Shown here piece by piece: positions 41,742 to 62,830 of a DNA stretch of 64,000 nucleotides. Within the stretch, counting starts at the first letter, position 1; every line of letters starts with the position of its first letter. Made by a program: the position numbers and the translations under genes. The DNA lies in NCBI GenBank assembly GCA_964017065.1, contig OZ024787.1, positions 5,577,301 through 5,641,300 of the forward strand, in the 5' to 3' direction. The notes beneath the pieces are model-generated. The model was not told the origin of the DNA, ran no database searches, and saw nothing but the letters and a program-made list of their open reading frames with translations. This DNA comes from Haliclona indistincta (lineage: Eukaryota > Porifera > Demospongiae > Haplosclerida > Chalinidae).

Positions 41742-41873
41742 TGTTGACATCATTTCTATGACGTCATTTTTCATGTATATATTGTGCTGCTCAATAATAA
41801 TAATCTGTTCTGTTCTGTCCCTCTATGGTATCTCCATGTCGAGCGTTTTTAGTTTCGAGAAGATACACACACA
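41742..41873 (+). repeat. 5' LTR (132 bp)
   Basis: Starts TG and ends CA. Contains TGACGTCA at 41,759-41,766 and a TATATA stretch at 41,776, plausible promoter elements. Pairs with 47,514-47,645. Confidence 0.9.
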
Positions 41874-41972
41874 TTTCTGGTCCACCGAGCCGGATACTGT
41901 CTCTCTAGCAGTATCGCTACCACGCTACCGTTTGTGTCTGCTCAAGAACACGTGCTGTTCCCTGCGCTCGTC

Positions 41973-44528
41973 ATGGCTGCTGTCTACCGTAGGAAGAGAG
42001 GTTCTGTAAAAGGTCTGGTCACTCGTTTGAACACTCGTGTGAACAGTCTTGAGAGTTCCAAGCATACAGCTGTAACTATCGACGAAGTTCGTCGTATCAT
42101 TGTACGTCTACAAACGCTCACCGACGAATTCAAGCTGCACCACGATTCTATTCTCGAACTCGTGGATAATGAAGAAGTTCTCGCAGTCGAACAAGAAATA
42201 CTGGAAGCTCATGAAGACACAGTATCTAACCTATTCACTCGACTCGACAAGATTGCTGCCTCGTGTAATGTCGAAAAGGACACACAATCCAAGCAGGCTA
42301 CCAAGCGTCTCGAGTACTTGAAGAAGGAGATTGCTGCCATTCACGCAAGTATCTCCACACTTCCTGCGAGTAGTGACCACACATGCCTGCTACAACAACA
42401 AGAGGAGAAGCTAGGAGAGCTCAAGAAAGAACTCTCAGCCACCCGTCAGACTATTCTCTCCCTCGATATCGATGAGACTAGTACGTTGTCTGTACTACAG
42501 AAAGAAGTAGATGGTGATATCTTCAATTGTTCTCTCGAAATCCGCAAACTACTCTACTCTAAAGATGTAAAGCCTCACGAATCTGCTTCAGATGTCTCTG
42601 GCGTAAAGCTACCAAAACTTGATGTCCCAACTTTTGATGGTGATATCCTTCATTGGAGCAGCTTCTGGGAGCAATTTGTTACATCAGTTGACTCACGTAA
42701 ACATCTCAGCAATGCTGAAAAACTCGTGTATCTACAACATGCTGTAAAGAATGGATCTGCTGCTGGTGTCATCCAAGGACTATCACAGTCTGGAGAACAG
42801 TATACAGAAGCCGTGGGATGTCTCAGACAAAGATACGATCGACCACGTCTTGTTCACCAGATGCATGTACGCAAGATCATGGACATTCCTCGTATGAGAG
42901 AAGGCAGTGGAAAAGAAATACGACAACTACACGACACTGCATTGCAGCATCTTAGAGCACTCAGAGCTATGGGTCATGAGCCGTCAGGTTCATTCATCAC
43001 ATCATTACTTGAACTCAAGCTAGACTCGACAACTATGTTCGAATGGCAACAACACAGTCGATCTCAATCTGATGTTCCGCATTTTGAGGAGCTACTCGCT
43101 TTCATCAATCTGCGCGCTCAAGCAGCCGAAACTGTGATCCCAGACATCCGCAAGAAAAACCCTGAGCCACATCCTCCTCCAAGGAAGGACTTCAGAAGAA
43201 TTGGCTCGTTCAACTCTTTCGTTACTCCCAACGAGGGCATCTCTTGTGTTGTCTGTAAGTCAAACCATCTATTGCACGCATGTCCTGATTTCAAAGCTTT
43301 GGGTCATGAGAATAAGATGAGTTTGTTGAAGACAAATAATCTATGTACCAATTGTCTTAGACCAGGTCATTACAGCAAAGCATGTAAATCCCCTAACAGG
43401 TGTCGTATTTGTCATAAGCTTCACCACACTCTGCTACATGTAAACGATGTTAAGAAGAACGATGGCATTGTCAATACTAACCCTGCGAACAAGTCCCAGA
43501 CACCAGTTCATGTATCTAATCATGCTACTATGGGTAGTCAATCCAATGTATTGTTAATGACTTGTCGTGTCAATGTCAAATCACCAAATGGTTCTACGAT
43601 TGTATCAAGAGCATTGTTAGACTCTGGTTCATCAGCCTCTTTTATATCAGAGCGCCTTGTTCAAAGTTTACAGTTACCAAGGTCTGAACGCAACATTCGT
43701 GTTTCAGGCGTCGCCTGTCTCACCAGCACTCTGTCCGCACGATCGACAACAAGCTGTCTGATCTCGTCAACACATGACCCTACTAAAGAATTTAAAATCT
43801 CTGCTGTTATTGTCCCTCAGGTTACTTGTGATTTGCCGTTGAACAGTATCTCTCCTAATCCTGAGTGGAATCATCTCTCTGACATTAACCTTGCTGATCC
43901 GACGTTTGGTACTCGTAGCAGAATTGATCTATTGCTGGGAGTTGAGGTGTACACAGAGGTTATGTGCAGTGGCCGTAGGATCGGATCCACAGGTATACCA
44001 GATGCTTTTGAGACTCATCTTGGTTGGGTAGTCGCAGGCAACTATGGGAAGCCTTTGTTCACTCATACTGTCAGTTGTCATGTTCATGTACTCTCTGATG
44101 ATCTGTTGCGCAAATTCTGGGAATTAGAGAGTGCTCCACATACCGTTTTGTTATCCCCAGATGAGAAAGTTGCTGTAAATCATTTTCAAACTAAGCATTA
44201 TCGTGATGAATCAGGAAAGTTTGTTGTCCCGTTGCCTCGGAAACAGAATGTTAAACCGCTGGGCGAATCTCGATCTCAGGCTATTAAGCGATTCATCTCT
44301 TTCGAACGCTCATTGCATTCAAAGAACTTGTTCTCAGAGTTTCAGCCAGTCATTGAAGAATACTTCCAGAAAGGTCATGCCGAGGTAGTACCTGATGCTG
44401 ATATGCTGAAGCCTCCTCAATCTTGTTTTACATGCCTATGCACGCTGTACGAAAAGAATCGAGTTCCACGACTAAAATTAGAGCCGTATTTGACGCTTCA
44501 GCCAAGAGTTCTACTGGAGTGTCATTGA
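41973..44528 (+). CDS. BEL/Pao gag-protease ORF, running into reverse transcriptase
   Basis: I choose the ATG at 41,973 (MAAVYRRKRGSVKGL); the frame is open further upstream without an ATG. A helical region is followed by the DUF1759-type gag domain (KLDVPTFDGDILHWSSFWEQ, about residue 215), zinc knuckles (CVVCKSNHLLHAC, CTNCLRPGHYSKACK, CRICHKLHHTLLH, about residues 425-490), and a DUF1758-type aspartic protease (RALLDSGSSASFIS, about residue 550). The frame ends at 44,528 after leaving the pol frame near 44,420, where a one-base frame change lies in a T run at the start of the reverse transcriptase domain. It could be a lesion or an assembly error; I see no convincing slippery site. Confidence 0.85.
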   Translation: MAAVYRRKRGSVKGLVTRLNTRVNSLESSKHTAVTIDEVRRIIVRLQTLTDEFKLHHDSILELVDNEEVLAVEQEILEAHEDTVSNLFTRLDKIAASCNVEKDTQSKQATKRLEYLKKEIAAIHASISTLPASSDHTCLLQQQEEKLGELKKELSATRQTILSLDIDETSTLSVLQKEVDGDIFNCSLEIRKLLYSKDVKPHESASDVSGVKLPKLDVPTFDGDILHWSSFWEQFVTSVDSRKHLSNAEKLVYLQHAVKNGSAAGVIQGLSQSGEQYTEAVGCLRQRYDRPRLVHQMHVRKIMDIPRMREGSGKEIRQLHDTALQHLRALRAMGHEPSGSFITSLLELKLDSTTMFEWQQHSRSQSDVPHFEELLAFINLRAQAAETVIPDIRKKNPEPHPPPRKDFRRIGSFNSFVTPNEGISCVVCKSNHLLHACPDFKALGHENKMSLLKTNNLCTNCLRPGHYSKACKSPNRCRICHKLHHTLLHVNDVKKNDGIVNTNPANKSQTPVHVSNHATMGSQSNVLLMTCRVNVKSPNGSTIVSRALLDSGSSASFISERLVQSLQLPRSERNIRVSGVACLTSTLSARSTTSCLISSTHDPTKEFKISAVIVPQVTCDLPLNSISPNPEWNHLSDINLADPTFGTRSRIDLLLGVEVYTEVMCSGRRIGSTGIPDAFETHLGWVVAGNYGKPLFTHTVSCHVHVLSDDLLRKFWELESAPHTVLLSPDEKVAVNHFQTKHYRDESGKFVVPLPRKQNVKPLGESRSQAIKRFISFERSLHSKNLFSEFQPVIEEYFQKGHAEVVPDADMLKPPQSCFTCLCTLYEKNRVPRLKLEPYLTLQPRVLLECH

Positions 44529-47230
44529 ATGATACCCTATTGGTGGGTCCTACTGTTCATGCATCGCTGGTCGATGTTTTATTGCGCTTTCGTCAACACA
44601 GAGTTGCTCTTATCGCAGATGTTAGTCGTATGTATCGGGCAGTAGCTTTACCTGAGTCAGATCGTGATATGCATCGATTCGTATGGAGAACTTCTCCTAA
44701 TGACCATCTAAAAGACTATCGCATGACTCGTGTGACGTTTGGCGTGTCTTCTTCAGCATTTATTGCTAATATGTGTATCAAACAAAATGCTATAGATCAT
44801 GCTTCGCAGTTCCCTCAAGCTGCAGAAGCAGTACACAGTTCGTTCTACGTAGACGATGGTCTAACTGGTGCAGATTCCGTAGAACAAGCTATAGAGCTAC
44901 ACAACCAGTTGCAAATGCTCTTTGACGCAGGTGGATTCCTCCTCCGGAAATGGAATTCTAGTGAGACTGCTGTACTAGAAAACATAGAGCCTAAACTCAG
45001 AGATGTGCAGCACACCCACACAATCATCGATTCAGAAGCATATACAAAGACATTGGGTGTAGAATGGTATTCGAATACTGATAAGTTTCGATTAATAGTT
45101 GCTGATCTTGTACATTCAGAGGTTTTCACCAAAAGAGAGTTGACATCAGACATCGCCAAAGTTTATGATCCATTAGGATGGATCGCTCCTGTGACCATCA
45201 AAGCTAAAATCCTTCTACAACGATTATGGGAGGAAAAGATCCAATGGGATGATCAAGTACCAGAAGCGTTACTACAGATTTGGTTACGCTGGCGTACAGA
45301 GCTGAAATTGCTTACAGAGAAGAATATATCACGTTGTTATTTTCCAAAAGATGCAACCATTATTTATCAACAAATACATGGCTTCTCTGATGCATCAGAA
45401 TTGGCATATGCTGCTGTCGTATATCTACGCCAAGTAGACTCTACTGGTACTGTACATATCGCACTTGTTGCAGCTAAGACAAAAGTTGCGCCGATCAAAA
45501 GACAGAGCATACCACGTTTAGAGCTCTGTGGAGCTGGTCTGCTCGCACAGCTATTGCATCATTGTCAAATTACATTTAAATTTCCTTTGAGAGACACTTT
45601 TGCGTGGACAGACAGTACCATTGTATTGAATTGGCTCGCCGGGAATCCGCGACGGTTCAAAGCATTTGTGGGAAACAGAGTCTCGCAAATTATAGATCTT
45701 GTTCCACCTAACCGCTGGCACTTTGTAGAAGGCATTGAGAATCCAGCAGACTGTGCTTCTCGCGGACTATACGGTTCTGAGTTGTTGACACACAAATTAT
45801 GGTGGTCAGGACCACAATGGCTGACTTTGGGAATTCATCATTGGCCTAAACAACCAACTCTATCTCCAAATAATCTATCTGAAGAAGCTGATGAAATCTG
45901 TGCTCACACTGCTGTTCTTCAGACTGTTCCATCTACTGTCATTCCTATGGATCAGTACTCGAGCTATACACAACTCAAGAGAATTACAGCTTGGATTAGA
46001 CGATTTGTCAAGAATTGCCAAACAGCTGCTAATGACAGAACTACTGGTCCTTTGACTGCTAAGGAATTGGAACAAGCTCAAAACTACTGGATTGTAATAT
46101 CTCAACGAGATCATTTCTCAAAAGAGATCAATCTGCTCAGTCAAAACAAGCCAGTTTCCAAATCGAGCTCATTACGATCCTTACACCCATTCATTGACCA
46201 AGCAGGTATTATTCACGTTGGTGGTCGTCAGCAAAACTCTAACCAAAACTACAACAAACAACATCCTGTCATCCTCCATGGAAAGCATATCATCTCAAAG
46301 CTGATTGTTAGTGCAGAACATCTACGACTACTTCATGCTGGACCGCTACTCATGAACGCATCACTAAGGCGTCGATTCCACTTTCTAGGAGGACGCAGAG
46401 TCGTTCGGTTCATCACACGCAGTTGCGTCATATGCAAGCGGCAAACAGCTCGAGCTCATCCACCACCATTGATGGGTCAACTTCCTGCCGAACGCATCAC
46501 TCCTGATATCGTTTTCAGTCACGTAGGAATTGACTATGCTGGGCCATTACTCATCAAGTTTGGTTATGTTCGTAAACCTACTCTGAAAAAAGCATATGTG
46601 TGTGTATTTGTGTCTTTATCTACAAAGGCTGTTCATCTAGAACTGGTCTCCGATCTCACGACAGAAGCATTCATAGCTTGTTTGCGCCGCTTTGTTGCAA
46701 GGAGAGGTAAACCAACAAATATCTGGAGTGATCATGGGACTAACTTCATAGGAGCAGCTCGGCAGCTCAATGAATTATATACATTCCTCAAGGAGAAGAA
46801 AACAACTGAAGTTATTTCCCGCTTCTGTTCTGATCAATCCATTACATGGGATTTTATTCCCGAGCATGTGCCACATTTTGGCGGTTTATGGGAAGCCGCT
46901 GTCAAAAGCTTCAAACGACATCTATATCGAATAATGGGAGATACGAAACTCACGTTTGAAGAGATGACAACCACTTTGACGCAAATCGAGGCATGTCTTA
47001 ACAGCAGACCACTCACTCCCCTTCCTACTAGCGAAGACGCTAATTTCGAAGTGCTCACTCTGGGACATTTCTTGATCGGGCGTCCTCTGGAAGCACTACC
47101 CGACTGTCAAGATGTTTCACTTCAAGTCAACCCGCTCAAGCGATGGCACCTATGCCAAACTCTGATAAGACATTTTTGGAACCGATGGTCAACAGAATAC
47201 ATTACCAATTTGCAGAGAATGACTAAGTGA
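44423..47230 (+). CDS. BEL/Pao pol: reverse transcriptase, RNase H, integrase
   Basis: This frame is shifted relative to gag. It begins within the reverse transcriptase (IRAVFDASAKSSTGVSLNDT), includes the active site SFYVDDGLTG, the thumb/Pao-specific region, RNase H (IHGFSDASELAYAAVVYL; RLELCGAGLLAQLL; AWTDSTIVLNWL), an H2C2 zinc-binding region (SAEHLRLLHAG…CVICKRQ), and the integrase core with Asp (HVGIDYAGPLL), Asp (WSDHGTNFIG) and Glu (HFGGLWEAAVKS). A TGA at 47,228-47,230 ends the frame early. The family's C-terminal domain continues in the same frame to 47,434 (VIVQEKNSTPTRWPIARIIA…). Supplies reverse transcription and integration. Confidence 0.88.
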   Translation: MFYMPMHAVRKESSSTTKIRAVFDASAKSSTGVSLNDTLLVGPTVHASLVDVLLRFRQHRVALIADVSRMYRAVALPESDRDMHRFVWRTSPNDHLKDYRMTRVTFGVSSSAFIANMCIKQNAIDHASQFPQAAEAVHSSFYVDDGLTGADSVEQAIELHNQLQMLFDAGGFLLRKWNSSETAVLENIEPKLRDVQHTHTIIDSEAYTKTLGVEWYSNTDKFRLIVADLVHSEVFTKRELTSDIAKVYDPLGWIAPVTIKAKILLQRLWEEKIQWDDQVPEALLQIWLRWRTELKLLTEKNISRCYFPKDATIIYQQIHGFSDASELAYAAVVYLRQVDSTGTVHIALVAAKTKVAPIKRQSIPRLELCGAGLLAQLLHHCQITFKFPLRDTFAWTDSTIVLNWLAGNPRRFKAFVGNRVSQIIDLVPPNRWHFVEGIENPADCASRGLYGSELLTHKLWWSGPQWLTLGIHHWPKQPTLSPNNLSEEADEICAHTAVLQTVPSTVIPMDQYSSYTQLKRITAWIRRFVKNCQTAANDRTTGPLTAKELEQAQNYWIVISQRDHFSKEINLLSQNKPVSKSSSLRSLHPFIDQAGIIHVGGRQQNSNQNYNKQHPVILHGKHIISKLIVSAEHLRLLHAGPLLMNASLRRRFHFLGGRRVVRFITRSCVICKRQTARAHPPPLMGQLPAERITPDIVFSHVGIDYAGPLLIKFGYVRKPTLKKAYVCVFVSLSTKAVHLELVSDLTTEAFIACLRRFVARRGKPTNIWSDHGTNFIGAARQLNELYTFLKEKKTTEVISRFCSDQSITWDFIPEHVPHFGGLWEAAVKSFKRHLYRIMGDTKLTFEEMTTTLTQIEACLNSRPLTPLPTSEDANFEVLTLGHFLIGRPLEALPDCQDVSLQVNPLKRWHLCQTLIRHFWNRWSTEYITNLQRMTK

Positions 47231-50289: not shown

Positions 50290-50860
50290 ATCTCTGCTTT
50301 CGGCTTGACAACTATCCAACCTCGGTTGGCGAGGGAGAGAAAACACCTCTGGGGAACTGCACAGCTGTAGGAGTGTGCGGTACCTGATAGAGATCGGTAT
50401 ATAGTCACACCGCACCGTCACGTTTGACGAGCCGAACTGCACTGACAGGCTGCACTGCCGGTCAACCTATAGTCAACACACCTCTAGTATAGCCACACTG
50501 CACTGACGAGCGTCTAGCTTGCACTACTGAGCTACACTATAACAGCACAGTATAACTGCACGCTGGATGACCGCATTGCATGTGCAACATAGAAACAGCC
50601 GTGAGAATTACTTCTTATGCACTGCCTCCAACTGACCATCCATAAGACTGTATTAACTAGTTAAAGCGCCGTTGCGAGTGCAATAATTCCCGTATTGCAC
50701 GAGCAGACGGTGCTTTTACTGGTTTGTAGCACGACAGCTTGCCGCTGTCACTGAATCTTTGTGCCAGGGCGACTTATTCTCGAGGTCGAGCCAAGGTCAG
50801 TCACCGCCCACCCTATCTTTAACCCTCCTGGCCGTGCTATATTTTCCCTGGCCGTGCTAT
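50290..50860. other. Intergenic sequence with repeats shared with the far side of the MULE
   Basis: At 50,588-50,650 a unit (CATAGAAA…GAGAATTACTTCTTATGCACTGCC…) matches three tandem units at 56,486-56,650. A 20-bp unit CTGGCCGTGCTATATTTTCC is duplicated at 50,828-50,867. No gene seen. Confidence 0.5.
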
Positions 50861-50871
50861 ATTTTCCATAT

Positions 50872-51046
50872 GGCTGTGTCTATTGACACCAATTTGTTGG
50901 TGTCAATAACGGCCACGAAACGGCTATTGATACCAACTCGTCGCGTCGGTGTCAATAACGACCAAAAAAGCGCTATTTGACACCAACTCGCGACGAGCCG
51001 CTTGTTGGTGTCAACAACGGCCACAAATACGCTATAGCCACCAATT
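50872..51046 (+). repeat. Left terminal inverted repeat of the MULE
   Basis: Starts GGCTGTGTCTATTGACACC. Inside are three modules in which TTGACACCAA (or ATTGATACCAA) is followed 5-25 bases later by TTGGTGTCAA (or CGGTGTCAA), each a potential hairpin. By eye I count 15 CpG dinucleotides in 175 bp, far above the flanking density. The modules could be repeated transposase-binding sites. Confidence 0.9.
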
Positions 51047-51198
51047 GCGCCAACAGGTACGTGCATACCTACGACTACGTACCTATGGCGCAGCGTACAA
51101 CGCAACGATCAAACGCCTGTTAGAGTTTTAGAATTTCATTGAAATGAATGACTAGGATGAATAAATAATGAACAGATGGTCAGTGTATAAGACTACAA

Positions 51199-52711
51199 TC
51201 ATTCTGCCTGCTTGCACTGCCACACTATCCATTCTCGAATTCTGTCACTATTTCCCTGAATTATAAATACAAAAAATATTATTATTACTGATTAACGATA
51301 ATGAACCTAACCGGTTTGAATAGATATTTTTCAGTCTTAAGTAATTCATGTAACGCATACTGGATTAAAGATAAATCAACAGTATTATTGTTGCTTAGTG
51401 TACTGTGGTGAAATCTTACCATGCACACAAATACTCCACAGTCTGATCCATTTGATTGCTTTGGAAGATTCTGTAGTAAGGCTTTTGACTCAGTACATGT
51501 GCATAATACCTTGATGACATCAGCTGCATATGATACTGTAACCTTTGATGACAACCACTTCTTTAAGCGGCTCACACACTCCGGGTATCTACCATTCATG
51601 GAGTCATACACCCTAATTGTACCTTCTTTAGGATGAACAACCTAAATAATAATAGTTATTATTACACTAGAGATTGTGTATTATAATTATACCAGTAGTA
51701 TCCAGTGACTACACGTGCAGATGGGTAAAAGCAAGTGATCTTGGTCCAGTAGTTGAATCTATAAATTATGTGCATGACTGTGATCAATAGTAATACATCA
51801 TACCTTAATGCCGATATTTTTGCGGTACTTGTGAATGTAAAATCACTATTATGTTACCGAGTCTAGTTCAGTTATATACCGAACCCTCGAACGCTACATG
51901 GTCAAAAATTTTACTGATTAAATTTTAGCGGGACTTAAATTTCGCGATTTGAACGAGCGTAATACAAAATTGTATTGAATACTAAATTTTCGCTTATAAT
52001 TTTTGCCAATTGTACTGCTCGCAAATTGAAGTGCTCGCAAAAATACCAGCTTTACAGTATTATTATAGTAACTCACATCCTTATACCACTGTTTGGCTGA
52101 CAGTTCATTCTTGGCCAGAACGTTATAAAAAATGGTGACAATACATGAACGAGAGTTCCATTCTAATCATTATATAATTAGATATTATATACTGCTCAAT
52201 GCTAGATCATTGTTGGCTCACCATCTTGTTGACATTCTTAGCAGACACTTGCAAAAATGACATTACAGCCTATATAGTACACTCATCATAGTGCAGTTCA
52301 ATTTTACCACAACAACTACAATGCACCTGGTCAGTAAGCCACTTGCCAGGAAAGACAGAGAAGATGTCATTGTCATACATTAGACCCATTTGGCCATATG
52401 TACCCTCCATTGCCTTTTTCCAGATAGCACAAACCTATTATAATTATAATAGACACATGAATGGAAATTTTATGACATAATATTATGTTTAAAACTAACC
52501 ACTCTCTGGGTTTCTAAGGGTAGAACCCACCATTCTGGAGATGAAACATCAACCCAAGAAAGGTGTGGTTGTAGATCATCTGAGACTGGATTAGAATTAG
52601 CTATGTCACAAAGTTGAACTTGATGAACACTGCTCGGCAAATCATCTACAGTGGCATCAGGTAAATCGCTTTTGGCATCAGCTAAATGGTCTACTGTTCT
52701 CTCAGCATTGC
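51199..52711 (-). CDS. Module 3: Ulp1/SENP-type cysteine protease (C48 family)
   Basis: An N-terminal extension (SNAERTVDHLADAKSDLPDA…, VCAIWKKAMEGTYGQMGLMY…) is followed by FFYNVLAKNELSAKQWYKD and by the catalytic core: His in CSHWILL, Asp 17 residues later in IRVYDSMNGRYPE, oxyanion Gln and Cys in LPKQSNGSDCGVFVC. These match the His-Asp-Gln-Cys arrangement and spacing of Ulp1/SENP enzymes, which cleave SUMO or other ubiquitin-like modifiers. The protein ends REWIVWQCKQAE. One T-run frameshift lies in exon 10. Exons 51,758-51,199 join in phase. Confidence 0.85.
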
Positions 52712-55700
52712 CTATTATTAAATATATATATATAATAATATTATTATTATTTAAATGTAGGGCTGAAACGAATACTTGTACTATTCGACTATTCGATCGT
52801 TTTGACAGTATTCGAATGCTATTGCAGCTATTCGAATATTCGTTTGAAGTCTTTTAGCAGTTGGGAAACTTGGGCTATTTGTAACCAGTCCACAAATCAA
52901 ACCCGAGCCCTGACTGTATGTTGATATACAACTTTCAAACATATTTTTTTCTTGCGCAATGGTTGCTAGAGCTAGTTTTATTCCGATAATAGAGTATTCG
53001 ACTATTCGTTCGTTTTAGCTAGTGACTATTCGAACATGAAAATGCGTTATTCGTTTCAGCCCTATTTAAATGATTGTATGCTAACTCACTAAAAATTTTG
53101 ACACAGCGCCTTTGCACACAACTCTTCCTCCTCTTGCCCAATCCTCCATACTTAATCATATCTTTACAATAAACACACATCTGGCAATCCTTAGCTGTAC
53201 AACCCTCACAACTTCCACATCTCTTTTTTCTTTTCCCAGTAGAGAGATCTTTGCCAGCTAGAAAAATGTAACAGTGCAAGCAAGCTGATACTATCCATGA
53301 ATGCAGATAGCGCATGTGCATACATGTGTTCTTTTCTATATTTTCCTTGTTCATTGTTGCTATTTGCTTCTTTTCTTCTGCTTTGAAGGCCAAAGTTTAG
53401 AAGAAAATTTTGGTCTACCTCTCTTTTTAATAGTAGGCTTCAGCTCAATACTCTCTCTAAGGGAGCTTAGTAAAAGCCGGGGCTCTTCTTGAGCTGAAAG
53501 TGAAATAGAAACCAAAATATTATGGAGATAAAATAATCATACTGTTTATTTGAATTGACAATAATAATTTAAGTATTACAAATAATTATGCACCTTCATC
53601 AGATGTGAATGTACTCAAAGGCTCTTCCTCAGCCAACTCTCTGTCATTATTGACACTGGGCATGGCTTTGTCATCATTAGTAGTCTCATTTGGAACTGAT
53701 TGAAAATAGTCTAGTATAAGTGAAGTGACAAGTATTACTTAGTATACATTATGATTGATATAATATTTTCACACCTTCATCAGATGTGAATGTACTAGAA
53801 CGAACTTCGAATTCCTTAGCCAACTCGCTGTCATTGTTGATGCAGAGCATGGCTTCATCTTCAATATTAGTTTCATCTGGAACTGGTTCTTCATCGGCCG
53901 TGACATCATGTTCTACAACATCTGATGCTGGTTGTTCATCTACGATGATAAATTATGCATAATAATTTGATAGCTATTGTATTGTAAATCTGAATCAAAT
54001 TTCATGTATCTTACCTGTACAAATGACAAAATCGATGTTTTCATCCCAGTATTGCAACAAAGTTGAGACTTGAGAGTACATCTTCCTAAACTGTGGCATT
54101 CCTACCGTGCTTGCTCGAACAGCCAGTTTCTGAGAAATTTCTAGCATTTTTCTGTACTTTTGGGGTTGACTCAATGTCCGTTTCGTGGGAAGCTGATCAG
54201 GTAGGATACTTACTTGTGGTTCTAACCTATCACTGCATGGGTTGTCTGAACAGATAGAGCCAGAGTTTTTTACTGCTTCACTTTGGTAGGACTTCAACCA
54301 TCGCTTGTGAACCATAGCTTCTTCAAATACACCCAATTCTTTTTGCATTCGACAACTAAAGATATGTCGACAAGGAAGACACATAGTATGCTGGAAAGAA
54401 CAAGTGCAAGTATGTCGGTCCATGTTGACGCTGTATGCCTTCTCCTTGTATGTAACAGTTACTAAAGAACCTTCTACTTGATGCACATACTCTACTTTCT
54501 GTGCAAGTTGAATCTGTTTTAGTAACAGTTGTGTTGCATAACCAGTGCACAAAGAACTCATCACCTTTACTCCAAGAACATGGTCAAATTCAGTGCTCTG
54601 AGTGGTGAACTCTTCTACAAAGGACTGATGAGTTGTTTCCTCGTTAATGCACTGCATGAACTTAAGCAACCCATCGAACATCTCGTTGAGAGTGGAAGAG
54701 CGTCCCATAAGATCCTTTAGCTTACTGTGACAGCACTCAAGATGATTGTTTGTCGTGTTACCAAAGTGCACATTCAGATCTCTTTCGAATGACACCCACA
54801 TCTGCTTGCATGTGTCCCAATTTTCTTCAAAGTATTTGTCGAATTCAGCATTACTTAGCTGCCGTATATCGGCACGAATCTCGCAGTATTGCTGTTCGCT
54901 CTCGCTGTATTATTATGTACTGTATTATCTTATCTCGCTTTATTATCTCGCTGTATTATTATATTATGTACTGCCTTCCGAAGCTCATCTCTGTTTTCTT
55001 TTGGTACATCCAAATCTACAACCATCTTGTACAAGTACTTTATTACGTGAAACTGACAAAGCAAGACAGTAGCATCTGGAAGCTCACTCTTTAGAACAGC
55101 AATCTCAGTAAAATCTTTGTCAATGACAATAACTTTGATCTTTGAGTAGGATGGATTACAATCTTTGAAGGCTTTCACAATTGCGGACAGATGCTGACCT
55201 GTTTCTTCTGTGGTGGCTGCATAGAAAGCAGTGCGTCCATGGCCATACCCATCTTCTATCATGAAGGAATACAATGGCATGCCTACTTTGTTGACATTAT
55301 ATGTTCCATCTATAAGAACAATTTCAGGAAACTTCTCAAACAATTCTCGCATTTGTGAGGAGCAAAAGTAAACCACAGACAACTGATTCATTTCATTTAC
55401 TAGAACACCACCCTTTGCACCACTGTCTTTTTGCAACTCTTCATCAAGATGGTCAACTATTACTTGGGCATCATTTCGACCTTTTCGATCCTCATTCTTC
55501 AACTTTCCTCGTACATTCTGAATATCTTTGAGAGTGATTTGCTTTTGAAATTTGTGCATTAGGTGTTGTTTGAGCAATTTCACTTTGGGACCTAGAGTAA
55601 GCATATCTTTCACCTCAGCTTGCTCACCATCACTTAAACGTCTGGACGAACTGTAGTGTGCCATGATGTTCGGTCCAATACGGTGGTTGTATTCGAAATT

Positions 55701-56119
55701 ACACTTCTGGACAATGAACCTCTTCGTAACTGTGTTAAACGACACATACAGATGTGCATCACACCCCATAGAATAGTGCCGTTGGTTGGGCCTTGGACCC
55801 TTACTGCGCTCTCTTGCTGTACCATAATGTACACATCTGCATAATAATTATAACATTAATTACCATTATTATACACAAAACATCAGTACTAAGTTTACCT
55901 GTAAGAAATGAAAGCATACTTCCACTCTTCACTAATCCTCAACTTGCTCCCAGCCTTTTCTCTCCTCCTGTTATACTCCTGGACGGTTTGCGAATTATGG
56001 CGTCGCAAAGGATGTGATTGAGATGTTAGTTCTTCAATCCTTTCTTCCAGCTCACAATATGACTCAAACGAGTCTCCTACTTTCGGCAGTACCACGCCAG
56101 TACACGACGTGGTAGCCAT
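51199..56119 (-). CDS. Transposase-SWIM-AT-hook-CXXC-Ulp1 fusion gene of the MULE, about 14 exons
   Basis: Exons on the minus strand (start-end): 56,119-55,899; 55,836-54,015; 53,939-53,775; 53,695-53,594; 53,493-about 53,419; 53,257-53,090; 52,711-52,500; 52,434-52,327; 52,269-52,222; 52,162-52,077; 51,758-51,693; 51,641-51,420; 51,359-51,312; 51,255-51,199 (TGA stop). Splice sites are GT-AG and phases are continuous except at two lesions: a small tandem expansion with a stop and frame change near 54,925, and a one-base loss in a T run in exon 10 (near 52,133). Exon 5 can alternatively read through an AT-hook to a TAG at 53,360; the donor at 53,418 is weak. The predicted product is about 1,100 residues: FAR1-like DNA-binding domain, RNase-H transposase, SWIM finger, acidic linker, AT-hook, CXXC finger, Ulp1 protease. 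It is presumably nuclear. The modules are detailed in separate entries. Confidence 0.8.
51800..52065. mobile_element. Probable second MITE in a MULE intron
   Basis: Near 51,808 the sequence TTAATGCCGATATTTTTGCG is mirrored near 52,060 by CGCAAAAATACCAGCTTTA, so imperfect inverted repeats of about 25-35 bp bound a 250-bp AT-rich segment. A target duplication is not clear. The segment lies between exons 10 and 11 of the gene. Confidence 0.55.
52750..53072. mobile_element. hAT MITE nested in a MULE intron
   Basis: TAGGGCTGAAACGAAT starts at 52,758 and its reverse complement ends at 53,064 (307 bp), flanked by the 8-mer TTTAAATG at 52,750-52,757 and 53,065-53,072. Short inverted repeats with an 8-bp duplication define a hAT-type MITE. 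The interior is built from ATTCGA/ACTATTCG motifs. It sits in the intron between the CXXC exon and the next exon and leaves splicing sites intact. Confidence 0.93.
53090..53939 (-). CDS. Module 2: duplicated acidic exons, AT-hook and CXXC zinc finger
   Basis: Exons 53,939-53,775 and 53,695-53,594 encode paralogous acidic segments (VPDETNIEDEAMLCINNDSE… and VPNETTNDDKAMPSVNNDRE…, both ending STFTSDE), a tandem exon duplication in which both copies are phase 1-1. Exon 53,493 onward contains the AT-hook KKRGRPK. Exon 53,257-53,090 encodes a complete CXXC finger: RCGSCEGCTAKDCQMCVYCK, KYGG (the place of the KFGG motif) and SCVQRRC. All eight cysteines are present. CXXC fingers of this kind in DNMT1, MLL and CFP1 bind unmethylated CpG. 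Here the finger may direct the transposase to CpG-dense ends or target sites (inference). Confidence 0.85.
54015..56119 (-). CDS. Module 1: FAR1/Z-SWIM-type transposase
   Basis: Start ATG 56,119 (MATTSCTGVVLPKVGDSF). Exons 1 and 2 form a FAR1/ZSWIM3-type N-terminal domain (FESYCELEERIEELT… SYRCVHYGTARE… FNTVTKRFIVQKCNFEYNHR). The DDE nuclease follows with Asp in VLIDGTYNVNKVGMPLYSF (about residue 250), Asp in VIVIDKDFTEIAVL (about 313) with the adjacent LLCQFHVIKYL, and a likely third acid in TTNNHLECCHSKLKD. The SWIM finger is HTCTCSFQHTMCLPCRH (CxC…CxH). Near 54,890-54,960 a repeated ACATAATAATACAGCGAGA-type motif has expanded, bringing a TAA stop and frame change in this copy; the coding sequence resumes at SESEQQYCEIRADIRQL. 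Acts in cut-and-paste transposition. Confidence 0.85.
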
Positions 56120-56213
56120 GAAGAATTCAGCTAGATCACTGTACTTGAGCAGCTGTAGTAACGTACATACGTAATATGTACTGAAGCATGTGTCGATGGA
56201 GTTAAAAAAGTTA

Positions 56214-56392
56214 AATTGGTGGTTATAGCGTATTTGTGGCCGTTGTTGACACCAACAAGCGGCTCGTCGCGAGTTGGTATCAATAGCGCTTTTTTGGTCG
56301 TTATTGACACCAACGCGACGAGTTGGTGTCATGTCAATAGCCGTTTCGTGGCCGTTATTGACACCAACAAATTAGTGTCAATAGACACAGCC
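56214..56392 (-). repeat. Right terminal inverted repeat of the MULE
   Basis: Reverse complement of the left repeat with a few substitutions and one extra stretch (near 56,329-56,336, GTGTCATGTCAA). The gene's ATG lies 95 bp inside this repeat, so the repeat probably carries or adjoins the promoter. Confidence 0.9.
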
Positions 56393-56401
56393 TTTCCATA
56401 T

Positions 56402-57890
56402 TGCGAACGGTGTTCACATTATGGAAAATATAGAACGGGCGACGGGGCGGCGCCTTTGATACGCCCACGCAGAGTGCTACAAAATGACCATAGAAAACAC
56501 TCTTAAATACCTGTGAGAATAACTTCTTATATGCACTGCCCATCCACCTTAACACTGTATATATTACCATAGAAAACACTCTTAAATAGCTGTGACAATT
56601 ACTTCTTATGCACTGCCTCCAACTGACCACTGTCTATTGCCATAGAAAACACTTTTTAATTTCCCTATTATGCACCTGCCGGCTCCCACCTCACAAGAAT
56701 CTCTCCTTTGCTTTACACTGGCTGACCCTTTGATACTCATGTGTTTTGAGGTCTACATTCTCAATTCCTAAGCAAGCAATGCCTAATAGCCACTGGCAAT
56801 AATGATAACTCCCCAACTCATGGCACCGCCTAGGAGTGCAAAATTATACTAAATATGGATTTGAAAGTGATGGACTTGAAAATCACAATTGAAATTTACT
56901 GCATGCTTATTGGTGCCAATGGCTACACATGGGTTCAGTGCAGCTGGTGCTGCAACCCATTGCCGGCTCATAACGTACTGGCCACTGCCTATGCCACTGT
57001 CTAGGCCACTGTCTATAACTGTCTATGCATCTAACAGTCAGTTCAGCTAGTATGTATACCGTCATTTGACTTCTATTTGACTGCATAAACTTCAACTTTC
57101 TTACAATAAATTAACAAGAAAATTGGCTCTTGTAATGCATTTCAACAACACACGTATCTTATTTCTACCATAATTATATCAGTCATTCCAACAAGAACAA
57201 CTTCCATCACTGCAACCCAGGCGACCGCTCGTATAATTAAATTATACGAGTATGATCCAGGAAGTGACGTCATCGAAAAACCAGACCAGACTTTTACCCT
57301 GGGCGCGTAGGCGTCCGAGCGTTAAGCGTTTGGCTTCGTCTGTGTATGTATGTTTATAACAATTTATTATTATGTACGAGTGTACAAAAAAACGCGACCG
57401 TTTTAAGTGTTTACTGCCTTACTGCTTGAAGTTTGTCACCATAAATTAACCGGCCATTATCATTCCTATTGCAACATTGCCGATTAAAATACAACATCGC
57501 GGTAATAACGGTGGGTGTGCGACTGAGTTTAATTGTGAGACTGAGCGAACACGTATAACGCGTGCTGCAGCGCCCAGGGTACATGTATGTCCCACTCAAC
57601 TCTAGTTTTATACAAGTTTATGTACAATACACAATAAAAGGGCCATACATGTACAAACGAGAGCAAAAGCTAATACATTATTACTGGCGATTCAAACCTA
57701 TAATAATAAAAATTATTATAAGATAAACATATAAATAAGACGATCGGACACAGATAAAGTAAGTGAGAAAAAGGAAGTCAGTAAATTAATAATGATCTTT
57801 AGTATAATTATTAGTTCAGGATGATGTACAAAAATAATAAGAAATAATAAAACAGCTTTTCGAATGAAAAAGAAGATCTATATGTCACTG
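56402..57890. other. Intergenic; three tandem units of about 80 bp
   Basis: CCATAGAAAACACTCTTAAA begins units at 56,489, 56,569 and (as CCATAGAAAACACTTTTTAA) 56,641; the unit also occurs once at 50,588 on the other side of the MULE. CTCGTATAATT (57,228-57,238) is mirrored by AATTATACGAG (57,240-57,250). No gene was supported. Confidence 0.55.
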
Positions 57891-61821: not shown

Positions 61822-62248
61822 ACAAGAACGAAAAAGATTTCTTGCGAAATCAAAAGGATGTAGGGATGATTTGCAATGCTCAATGGTCCGCAATGTAAAC
61901 CAACAAGGAGGTAACATGCATGGAATGGTAACACGATCCTCTTGCTAACAGACCATAGATCCCTACATCAGTGGCTGCTGTGCTGCCTACAGCCAGCCAG
62001 TCAGCTAGCTAGCTGGCTGTTAATTGACACTTGACATGCTTTTAACTTACGGTAGAAATTTGTATAATTCTTAATCTATATGATATGTACAGCCACTGAT
62101 GTAGGGATCTATGGTCTGTTAGCAAGAGGATCGTGTTACCATTCCATGCATGTTACCTCCTTGTTGGTTTACATTGCGGACCATTGAGCATTGCAAATCA
62201 TCCCTACATCCTTTTGATTTCGCAAGAAATCTTTTTCTTTCTTGTAAG
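61822..62248. repeat. Fold-back element: about 155-bp arms, nearly perfect, 110-bp spacer
   Basis: The left arm (61,822-61,979; …GATTTCTTGCGAAATCAAAA…CCCTACATCAGTGGCTG) is the reverse complement of the right arm (62,090-62,248) with about one mismatch that I can see. The spacer contains short CAG/CTAG-rich repeats. The right arm joins the 3' end of the LINE fragment. A diverged single copy lies at 57,895-58,060. Confidence 0.85.
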
Positions 62249-62249
62249 A

Positions 62250-62830
62250 TGTTGACTGATACCAATGATGGATTATTCTCCACGCTTTACCACCAATACC
62301 AACTTGTAGGAGTTTATCAAGCAGAACACAATGCTCAACAGAATCAAAAGCCTTCTCAAGATCAAACAGGCAGAGATAAGGTAAACTTAATAACTGTGAA
62401 TGAATATAAAGAGAGATGATGGTATAATGAAACAGATTCAGTGTATACTTGTGATCAGTCATGTAATATGCAAATGTGATGGTATCATTAGGATGGCCAC
62501 CCTCTCGCAAATGGGTCAAGAGGGCTTCTTGTGTGCTAAAGGTTGCATCAGAGCATGAGAGACCCTTCCGATAGGCAGTTTGGAGACGGTCGGGAATGCT
62601 TAACTTGTCAAGGACTGGGTCAATCCTCCTCAGAATGATTACTTCGAATAATTTTGAGAAAACTGAGGAGATAGTTATCCCACGATAGCTAGAAGCTGAC
62701 GCATGGTCTTTTCCTTTTCTTTAATAAACTGGTACGATCTGACCGAGTTTCATACATGATTAGATTTCTTCAACGGCGAGGATTTTGTTAAAGACACCTG
62801 TTAACCAAGAAATAAGAATAGAACCACCAT
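62250..62830 (-). mobile_element. Non-LTR reverse transcriptase fragment (CR1/jockey-like)
   Basis: On the minus strand: HGGSILISWLTGVFNKILAV (about 62,810), a broken link, then SYRGITISSVFSKLFEVIIL (about 62,690), LQTAYRKGLSCSDATFSTQE (about 62,560), LTHLREGGHP, an inserted stretch of about 115 nt that is intron-like, then LCLFDLEKAFDSVEHCVLLD and VGIGGKAWRIIHHWYQS (about 62,350-62,270). These are fingers/palm blocks of a LINE reverse transcriptase, including the first catalytic Asp in FDLEKAFDS. The YADD block is missing because the fold-back element starts there. Confidence 0.75.

Follow-up and report, generated by a model that had tools for sequence, protein, structure and literature searches.

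A decayed Mutator-like element with transposase, AT-hook, CXXC and Ulp1 parts between its ends in the sponge Haliclona indistincta

The window analysed here, a stretch of 64,000 nucleotides from the sponge Haliclona indistincta (assembly GCA_964017065.1, contig OZ024787.1, forward-strand positions 5,577,301 to 5,641,300), contains a Mutator-like element (MULE) of 5,521 bp at positions 50872-56392, both ends of which were located. Between these ends, all on one strand and in this order, we found parts of a transposase, an AT-hook, a CXXC zinc finger and an Ulp1 protease. It is quite likely that an animal MULE, once autonomous, has decayed to the present copy; its intact form would have encoded a single multi-domain transposase, and it belongs to a set of CXXC-bearing MULEs. 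An earlier sequence-only reading of this DNA had proposed a MULE carrying these four parts between its ends, and this proposal was borne out by the ends as well as by the domain matches described below.

Ends, coding parts and domains of the element

The terminal inverted repeats (TIRs) of the element can be aligned across ~175 bp, with few substitutions and small indels separating the left from the right repeat. The 9-bp sequence TTTCCATAT abuts the outer edge of each TIR without a mismatch. TIRs of ~175 bp together with a 9-bp target duplication agree with the Mutator/MULE hallmark of TIRs flanked by target duplications of 8-11 bp. Thus, the inverted repeats of about 175 bp and the identical duplication on both sides, as already read from the letters, are confirmed at the following positions:

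50863-50871, unstranded: left target site duplication TTTCCATAT, identical to the right copy
50872-51047, plus strand: left TIR with three GGTGTCAA(T/C)AACG motifs at 50899, 50948 and 51007 and 15 CpG (observed/expected 1.44)
56214-56392, minus strand: right TIR with three GGTGTCAA(T/C)AACG motifs and 14 CpG (observed/expected 1.43)
56393-56401, unstranded: right target site duplication TTTCCATAT, identical to the left copy

A directly repeated 38-bp motif (50601-50638 and 56513-56629) flanks the element, which thus lies in locally repetitive DNA.

The coding parts lie on the minus strand and are given in their reading order, with the source of the assignment in brackets:

55899-56119, minus strand: E1, first coding exon, ATG from 56119 (open reading frame (ORF) reading)
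54015-55836, minus strand: E2, transposase exon with a weak FAR1-like part, the DDE RNaseH core and a SWIM-like CxC..CxH (Pfam)
near 54900-54975, minus strand: interruption of E2 by a ~47-nt tandem expansion (comparison with copies)
53775-53939, minus strand: E3, acidic linker exon
53594-53695, minus strand: E4, acidic linker exon resembling E3
53360-53493, minus strand: E5, AT-hook exon (KKRGRPKFSSKLWPSK), in the window copy open only as far as a stop at the low end (P0002, P0006 and P0007 share this tail)
53090-53257, minus strand: E6, zf-CXXC finger exon, eight Cys and KYGG (zf-CXXC 6.7e-12; best PDB relatives DNMT1 and KDM2B)
52758-53064, unstranded: 307-bp insertion in the E6-E7 intron with 17-bp inverted ends and the 8-bp duplication TTTAAATG, not in the second copy
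52500-52711, minus strand: E7, CXXC-to-Ulp1 linker exon, inside which the second copy breaks off
52327-52434, minus strand: E8, start of the Ulp1 domain (WLTDQ; SENP2 alignment)
52222-52269, minus strand: E9, exon of the first Ulp1 helix (AVMSFLQVSAKNVNKM), in the window copy with a phase mismatch to E10
52077-52162, minus strand: E10, Ulp1 exon (FYNVL...WYKD; SENP2 alignment)
51693-51758, minus strand: E11, Ulp1 exon with SHW (His), phase 0 on both sides
51285-51641, minus strand: E12, C-terminal Ulp1 part (Asp in YDSM; Gln and Cys in QSNGSDCG) up to the stop codon at 51285-51287 (Peptidase_C48 2.3e-9)

The intron between E10 and E11 (51829-52068) holds two dispersed short repeats of ~75 and 155 bp with many copies in the genome.

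Pfam was run on single ORFs and, for Ulp1, additionally on the joined exons E8-E12. The transposase matched the ZSWIM1-3 RNaseH-like domain (PF21056, 3.8e-42) and the MULE domain (PF10551, 5.4e-16), and the finger matched zf-CXXC (PF02008, 6.7e-12), with its eight cysteines arranged in two clusters and KYGG standing for the KFGG-like motif. Peptidase_C48 was found on the last exon (2.3e-9) and, as PF02902, on the joined exons (3.2e-20). The profile searches suggested along with the earlier reading were therefore significant for MULE, zf-CXXC and Peptidase_C48, whereas FAR1 (0.0044) and SWIM (0.056) stayed under the Pfam cut-offs; the SWIM-type CxC...CxH is recognisable by eye. Ginger1 was rejected as an identity of the element, since Pfam at E-values up to 1 gives MULE/ZSWIM and no integrase core.

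A 14-row alignment of transposases revealed D250 and D313 as invariant and E417 as nearly invariant, residues that we take to be the DDE residues of the transposase. The joined Ulp1 exons align to SENP2 (PDB, 4e-14) with WLTD, FY, HW, DSM and Q.NGSDCG all aligned, and the SENP-type His-Asp-Cys triad and the Gln are retained. A protein search returned relatives (P0001-P0009) that are 41-52% identical across 46-61% of the query, and in three of them (P0002, P0006 and P0007) the AT-hook tail lies within the transposase ORF. P0031 is 82% identical to the window transposase, and P0034, a 55% relative from the sponge Dysidea avara, is annotated as ZSWIM3-like. Searching with the composite residues 770-1119, from the AT-hook exon to Ulp1, returned one SENP-like protein (P0013) without a MULE domain. 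No relatives were found among viral contigs searched with the transposase exon and with alignment A1, nor among genome contigs searched with alignment A1.

Decay of the window copy and movement of its family

The window copy is decayed. Its transposase exon is cut by the ~47-nt tandem expansion, which contains stops and is found neither in the second copy (97% identical; see below) nor in P0031 (82% identical). Bridging this expansion with a 71-nt GT-AG intron would be possible at the loss of conserved residues. The broken transposase ORF (P0033) occurs on 2 contigs; the longest measures 806,776 bases and is distinct from the 15-Mb contig of the window, and the presence of the ORF on another contig makes a slip in a single assembly an unlikely cause of the break.

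For the remaining parts, splice paths were enumerated using GT-AG introns of at least 40 nt, with single joins from the AT-hook to the CXXC exon and up to two introns across Ulp1. The AT-hook exon reaches the CXXC exon in frame through 8 single joins, all of which use a single donor site inside the AT-hook motif and so disrupt it. Between exons E9 and E10 the phases do not match, and all 14 paths that stay in frame with at most two introns drop the first Ulp1 helix. Among these joins, no unbroken frame leads from the AT-hook to the CXXC finger or through the whole Ulp1 domain in the window copy; at the DNA level, the phases of a single frame that would hold C48 together with the transposase fail after the AT-hook and at E9/E10. 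Because of the breaks in the transposase, between AT-hook and CXXC and between E9 and E10, an unbroken gene is likely the ancestral state and not the state of the window copy. Of the single minus-strand gene with continuous phases put forward by the sequence-only reading, the order of the parts on one strand stands, while the continuity is lost to three frame breaks. Likewise, the stops and phase breaks leave the coding capacity of an element that had been called complete incomplete, and in place of a gene end near 51,199 we find the stop codon at 51285-51287.

A second copy, L030 (C4:9497000-9506500), is ~97% identical to window positions 52694-56392. Its AT-hook exon is open up to a GT in phase with the acceptor of the CXXC exon. 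It has a single TIR, a ~1.9-kb insertion and stops of its own, and neither an Ulp1 part nor a second TIR was found within the 9.5 kb fetched; this copy looks truncated. Using window positions 51040-52700 as a DNA query against the genome (best 40 of 51 candidates) returned only the query itself and short dispersed repeats, and the last Ulp1 exon matched only itself.

A genome search with the left TIR (best 40 of 119 candidates) returned the window element and one near-full TIR on contig C4 (98%), and at least 37 places that match only the ~63-87 outer bases. Nine pairs of these short ends are spaced by ~400-520 bases start to start, as judged by eye, and the four short elements inspected all have inverted ends of 68-84 nt. 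Three of these four (L004, L005, L006 and L008 were scanned) are flanked by exact 9-bp duplications, i.e., TTCATTGAT, AATGAATAT and ATAAGCAAT; no exact 9-bp duplication was present among the scanned flanks of L008. As short elements carry matching ends and duplications, the family sharing these TIR ends has moved. The genome search advised earlier was aimed at further full-length copies; it led to exact 9-bp duplications at these three short elements, and the one other near-full TIR among the matches listed, that of the C4 copy, belongs to a copy with one end.

MULE, CXXC and protease domains across the genome

To place the window element among its relatives, we relied on family searches of the whole genome (144 Mb), which give lower bounds: at least 71 matches to PF21056, at least 117 to zf-CXXC (97 above the cut-off), at least 73 to Peptidase_C48 and at least 150 to OTU (ovarian tumour). 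The co-location sets comprised all 71 MULE and all 150 OTU matches, the 97 CXXC matches above the cut-off and 65 of the 73 Ulp1 matches, 8 weak ones below the cut-off being dropped. Two of the 71 MULE matches lie below the cut-off, and one of these two is counted within both the 44 and the 28 places reported here. Copies of one family were counted separately, and some MULE matches are two pieces of one place.

A CXXC finger lies 0-6 kb downstream on the same strand of 44 of the 71 MULE matches, while 27 have none there; the shuffled mean was 0.14 (1,000 shuffles, with partly rough chromosome lengths). At 28 of these 44 places, an OTU match is located within 8 kb downstream. Moreover, OTU lies within 3 kb downstream of 39 of the 97 CXXC matches (shuffled mean 0.2; 500 shuffles, with better chromosome lengths), and no other arrangement of CXXC and OTU within 3 kb was observed among the 97. 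The MULE-CXXC-protease layout is thus shown at many related places by its domain order. An Ulp1 match follows the MULE on the same strand in one of the 71 cases, the window; one other MULE has an Ulp1 inside 10 kb (C2:762059), but upstream and on the opposite strand. No Ulp1 or OTU motif was seen downstream at L043, L044, L045 and L048, four of the 15 non-window MULE-CXXC matches without OTU. Since 44 of 71 MULE matches are followed by CXXC, and 28 of the 44 then by OTU, the window element is the member with Ulp1 in a group of CXXC-MULEs whose ubiquitin/SUMO-protease slot can be swapped. As separate observations, an ORF ~0.7 kb downstream of a MULE-associated CXXC finger gave a weak HIRAN match (L044:840-1466; 0.00034, under the cut-off), and a ZSWIM-type MULE on contig C9 (L033:2145-4923) is followed by a PHD-like finger (0.00019, just under the cut-off), with no CXXC found.

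The 28 MULE-CXXC-OTU places include the L037 family, which is better preserved than the window element. The L037 element (L037:449-5089, 4,641 bp) has perfect TIRs of 30 nt and a 10-bp duplication ATACTAAAAT. It consists of an ALS2CR8-type N-terminus, a MULE core, SWIM, CXXC and OTU, in this order and all between the TIRs; its transposase ORF includes neither CXXC nor OTU, which are encoded in other ORFs. Its transposase occurs in 11 copies at 98-100% identity, 8 of them with the full 504-aa frame. Elements of the L037 type resemble the window element in that MULE core, SWIM and CXXC are followed by a ubiquitin-type cysteine protease within TIRs; they differ in having OTU for Ulp1, the ALS2CR8-type N-terminus, the 10-bp duplication and a transposase that is 19% identical.

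Maize MuDR carries two genes, and the window element might similarly have combined a transposase-AT-hook gene with a separate downstream CXXC-protease gene. Such an organization would agree with the separate CXXC and OTU ORFs of L037 and with the enumerated joins of the window copy, none of which connects AT-hook and CXXC in frame while keeping the AT-hook motif. However, the AT-hook exon of L030 is open to a GT in phase with the CXXC acceptor, and the exons of the element all lie on the same strand with short gaps between them. We regard two genes as rather unlikely.

A further alternative holds that transposase, AT-hook and CXXC are native, and that the window copy alone captured its Ulp1 exons from a host SENP-type gene; Ulp1 would then be no working module of the family. 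The presence of the Ulp1 part in a single copy, the phase break within it (E9/E10) and an intron directly before the HW exon, in phase 0, that is common to E11 and to the host SENP-like loci L049-L051 (host splice sites by eye) would all fit a capture. Against this, the HW exons of these host loci are only 27-35% identical to the window Ulp1 over 44-52 residues, which renders a recent capture from them unlikely, and L049 reaches a higher value (76% alike over 17 residues) only at the Cys motif, which is the conserved core. Furthermore, Ulp1 occupies the slot held by OTU in the sister elements, its catalytic residues are kept, and a MULE-Ulp1 fusion in one ORF exists elsewhere (P0012). We judge capture by the window copy to be unlikely. 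The shared intron position and phase suggest that the Ulp1 part has an ancient origin in an animal SENP gene, of which it kept one intron. Finally, a domesticated ZSWIM-type host gene merely lying between repeats, which the closeness of the ZSWIM1/3 models to the transposase and the annotation of P0034 could have indicated, is very improbable and was rejected in view of the exact TIR and duplication ends, the second copy on another contig and the stops in both copies.

We therefore favour a decayed, once autonomous MULE whose intact protein would have comprised an N-terminal zinc finger, the DDE core, a SWIM finger, the AT-hook, the CXXC finger and a SENP-like Ulp1 protease. Several points weigh against it. 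The frames of the window copy are broken at three places, the fusion into one protein is read from genomic DNA, and none of the 44 MULE relatives listed has MULE and zf-CXXC in one ORF, though introns would mask such a fusion. The Ulp1 part was found by the genome DNA queries in one copy only, that of the window. The window and L037 transposases are only 19% identical, which places a CXXC finger and a ubiquitin-type protease on two distant MULE lineages; the layout that they have in common may have arisen by convergence or through exchange.

Accessory proteases have been described in mobile elements before. PMC2836005 reports Ginger1 elements with a C-terminal OTU or Ulp1, for which a role in repair signalling is suggested. 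It also states that Ulp1 occurs in Mutator elements of several plants and, citing Repbase reports, in those of hydra and lancelet, and raises the purpose of accessory proteases in Ginger and MULE elements as a question. Thus, Ulp1 in an animal MULE is already known. In three further sources, Ulp1-bearing MULEs of plants (Kaonashi) are cited, with 97 or more plant MULEs containing C48 domains (PMC6117577), the cnidarian MULE MuDR-6_HM has an 'Ovarian Tumour Gene' (OTU) part (PMC6446971), and FHY3-type MULE-derived genes are reported from the sponge Amphimedon (PMC10027918). The Ulp1-bearing MULEs of plants, hydra and lancelet resemble the window element in combining a MULE transposon with a Peptidase_C48/Ulp1 domain; the term CXXC does not occur in PMC2836005. 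According to the same source, some Ginger1 families carry OTU at the C-terminus and others Ulp1, in one case together with PHD, so that both proteases share one slot; Ginger1 differs in its Gypsy-integrase-like transposase, compared with the MULE-type transposase plus CXXC here. MuDR-6_HM shares OTU with the sister elements, and no zinc finger is listed for it in PMC6446971, in which Ulp1 and CXXC do not occur. Among the proteins, P0012 (a 1,280-aa ORF) has, like the window element, a ZSWIM/MULE transposase and Ulp1, here in one ORF; unlike the window element, it has a PHD finger and no CXXC, and its identity is 24% over 45% of the query. In addition, the oomycete MULE transposase P0011 of Globisporangium splendens is followed at its C-terminus by a stretch that, judged by eye, resembles Ulp1 (HWG...YDPM...GSSCGVF) and that Pfam did not flag. 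In a literature search covering titles and abstract openings of the papers listed, with Repbase outside it, no CXXC finger was reported in a MULE transposase and the MULE-CXXC-OTU/Ulp1 layout was not found in print. Both are new as far as searched.

The CXXC finger, the element's ends and a possible mechanism

The CpG observed/expected ratio is 1.44 and 1.43 in the two TIRs versus 0.62 both inside the element and in the remainder of the window. In L037, CpG density amounts to 50 and 70 per kb in the two 200-nt ends versus 21.9 per kb inside (observed/expected 0.82 and 1.34 versus 0.54). The target duplications (n=5) are AT-rich and none contains a CpG, so the element's own ends, and not the target bases, are the better candidate if the finger reads CpG. 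Our guess from these sequences would be that the finger reads the CpG-dense TIRs of its own element.

CXXC fingers have a K-Q pair, the glutamine of which we take to contact CpG. The pair is intact in L043, L044, L047 and L048, and its position is occupied by R-K in the window, M-K in L030 and K-K in L037, L045 and L046. A CXXC regular expression missed the real finger of L047, and a 'no pattern' call alone is therefore weak. Three observations speak against a reading of CpG-dense ends by the finger: the presumed contact glutamine is a lysine in the window, L030, L037, L045 and L046; the CpG count of the TIRs is reached by 20 of 2,535 equal-length stretches of the left flank and is possibly due to chance; and the outer 75 bases of L004-L006 contain 27-53 CpG per kb, mostly below their middles (47-61), which speaks against CpG-rich ends as a general rule. 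The idea that the element selects unmethylated CpG as its target, as envisaged before, is weak given the five AT-rich duplications without CpG and the change of the presumed contact residue.

Hosts silence transposons via CpG methylation plus SUMO and ubiquitin signalling. The ends and duplications show that the element moved by cut-and-paste, leaving 9-bp target duplications, and that short elements carrying matching ends moved as well. AT-hook and CXXC finger could have acted as additional DNA or chromatin clamps, the latter perhaps on the CpG-dense repeated TIR motifs, with the ends held best when unmethylated. As the domain order shows, the slot after CXXC is filled, within the group, by an OTU deubiquitinase-type domain, by Ulp1 (window only) or by no recognised protease. 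The protease might act locally on host proteins of silencing or repair, removing SUMO from them or, in the sister elements, ubiquitin, and deSUMOylation of host proteins by the predicted Ulp1 of the element appears plausible. Taken further, a large group of animal MULEs might sense the methylation of its own ends, with CXXC docking to CpG-dense TIR motifs only if these are unmethylated and an interchangeable OTU or Ulp1, joined to the finger, erasing ubiquitin or SUMO signals of silencing or repair there, a proposal that we consider doubtful. If true, transposition would be licensed by escape from silencing. The fixed domain order with a swapped protease offers a way to test the purpose of accessory proteases, and the near-identical copies of the OTU family with open transposase frames make experiments possible without the decayed window copy.

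Two further features lie in the window. A BEL/Pao-type retroelement on the plus strand (41853-47230) has two overlapping ORFs with DUF1759 (7.8e-31), Peptidase_A17 (5.4e-52) and weaker integrase and reverse transcriptase matches, and a reverse transcriptase fragment (RVT_1, 1.3e-7) is located at 62169-62720 on the minus strand.

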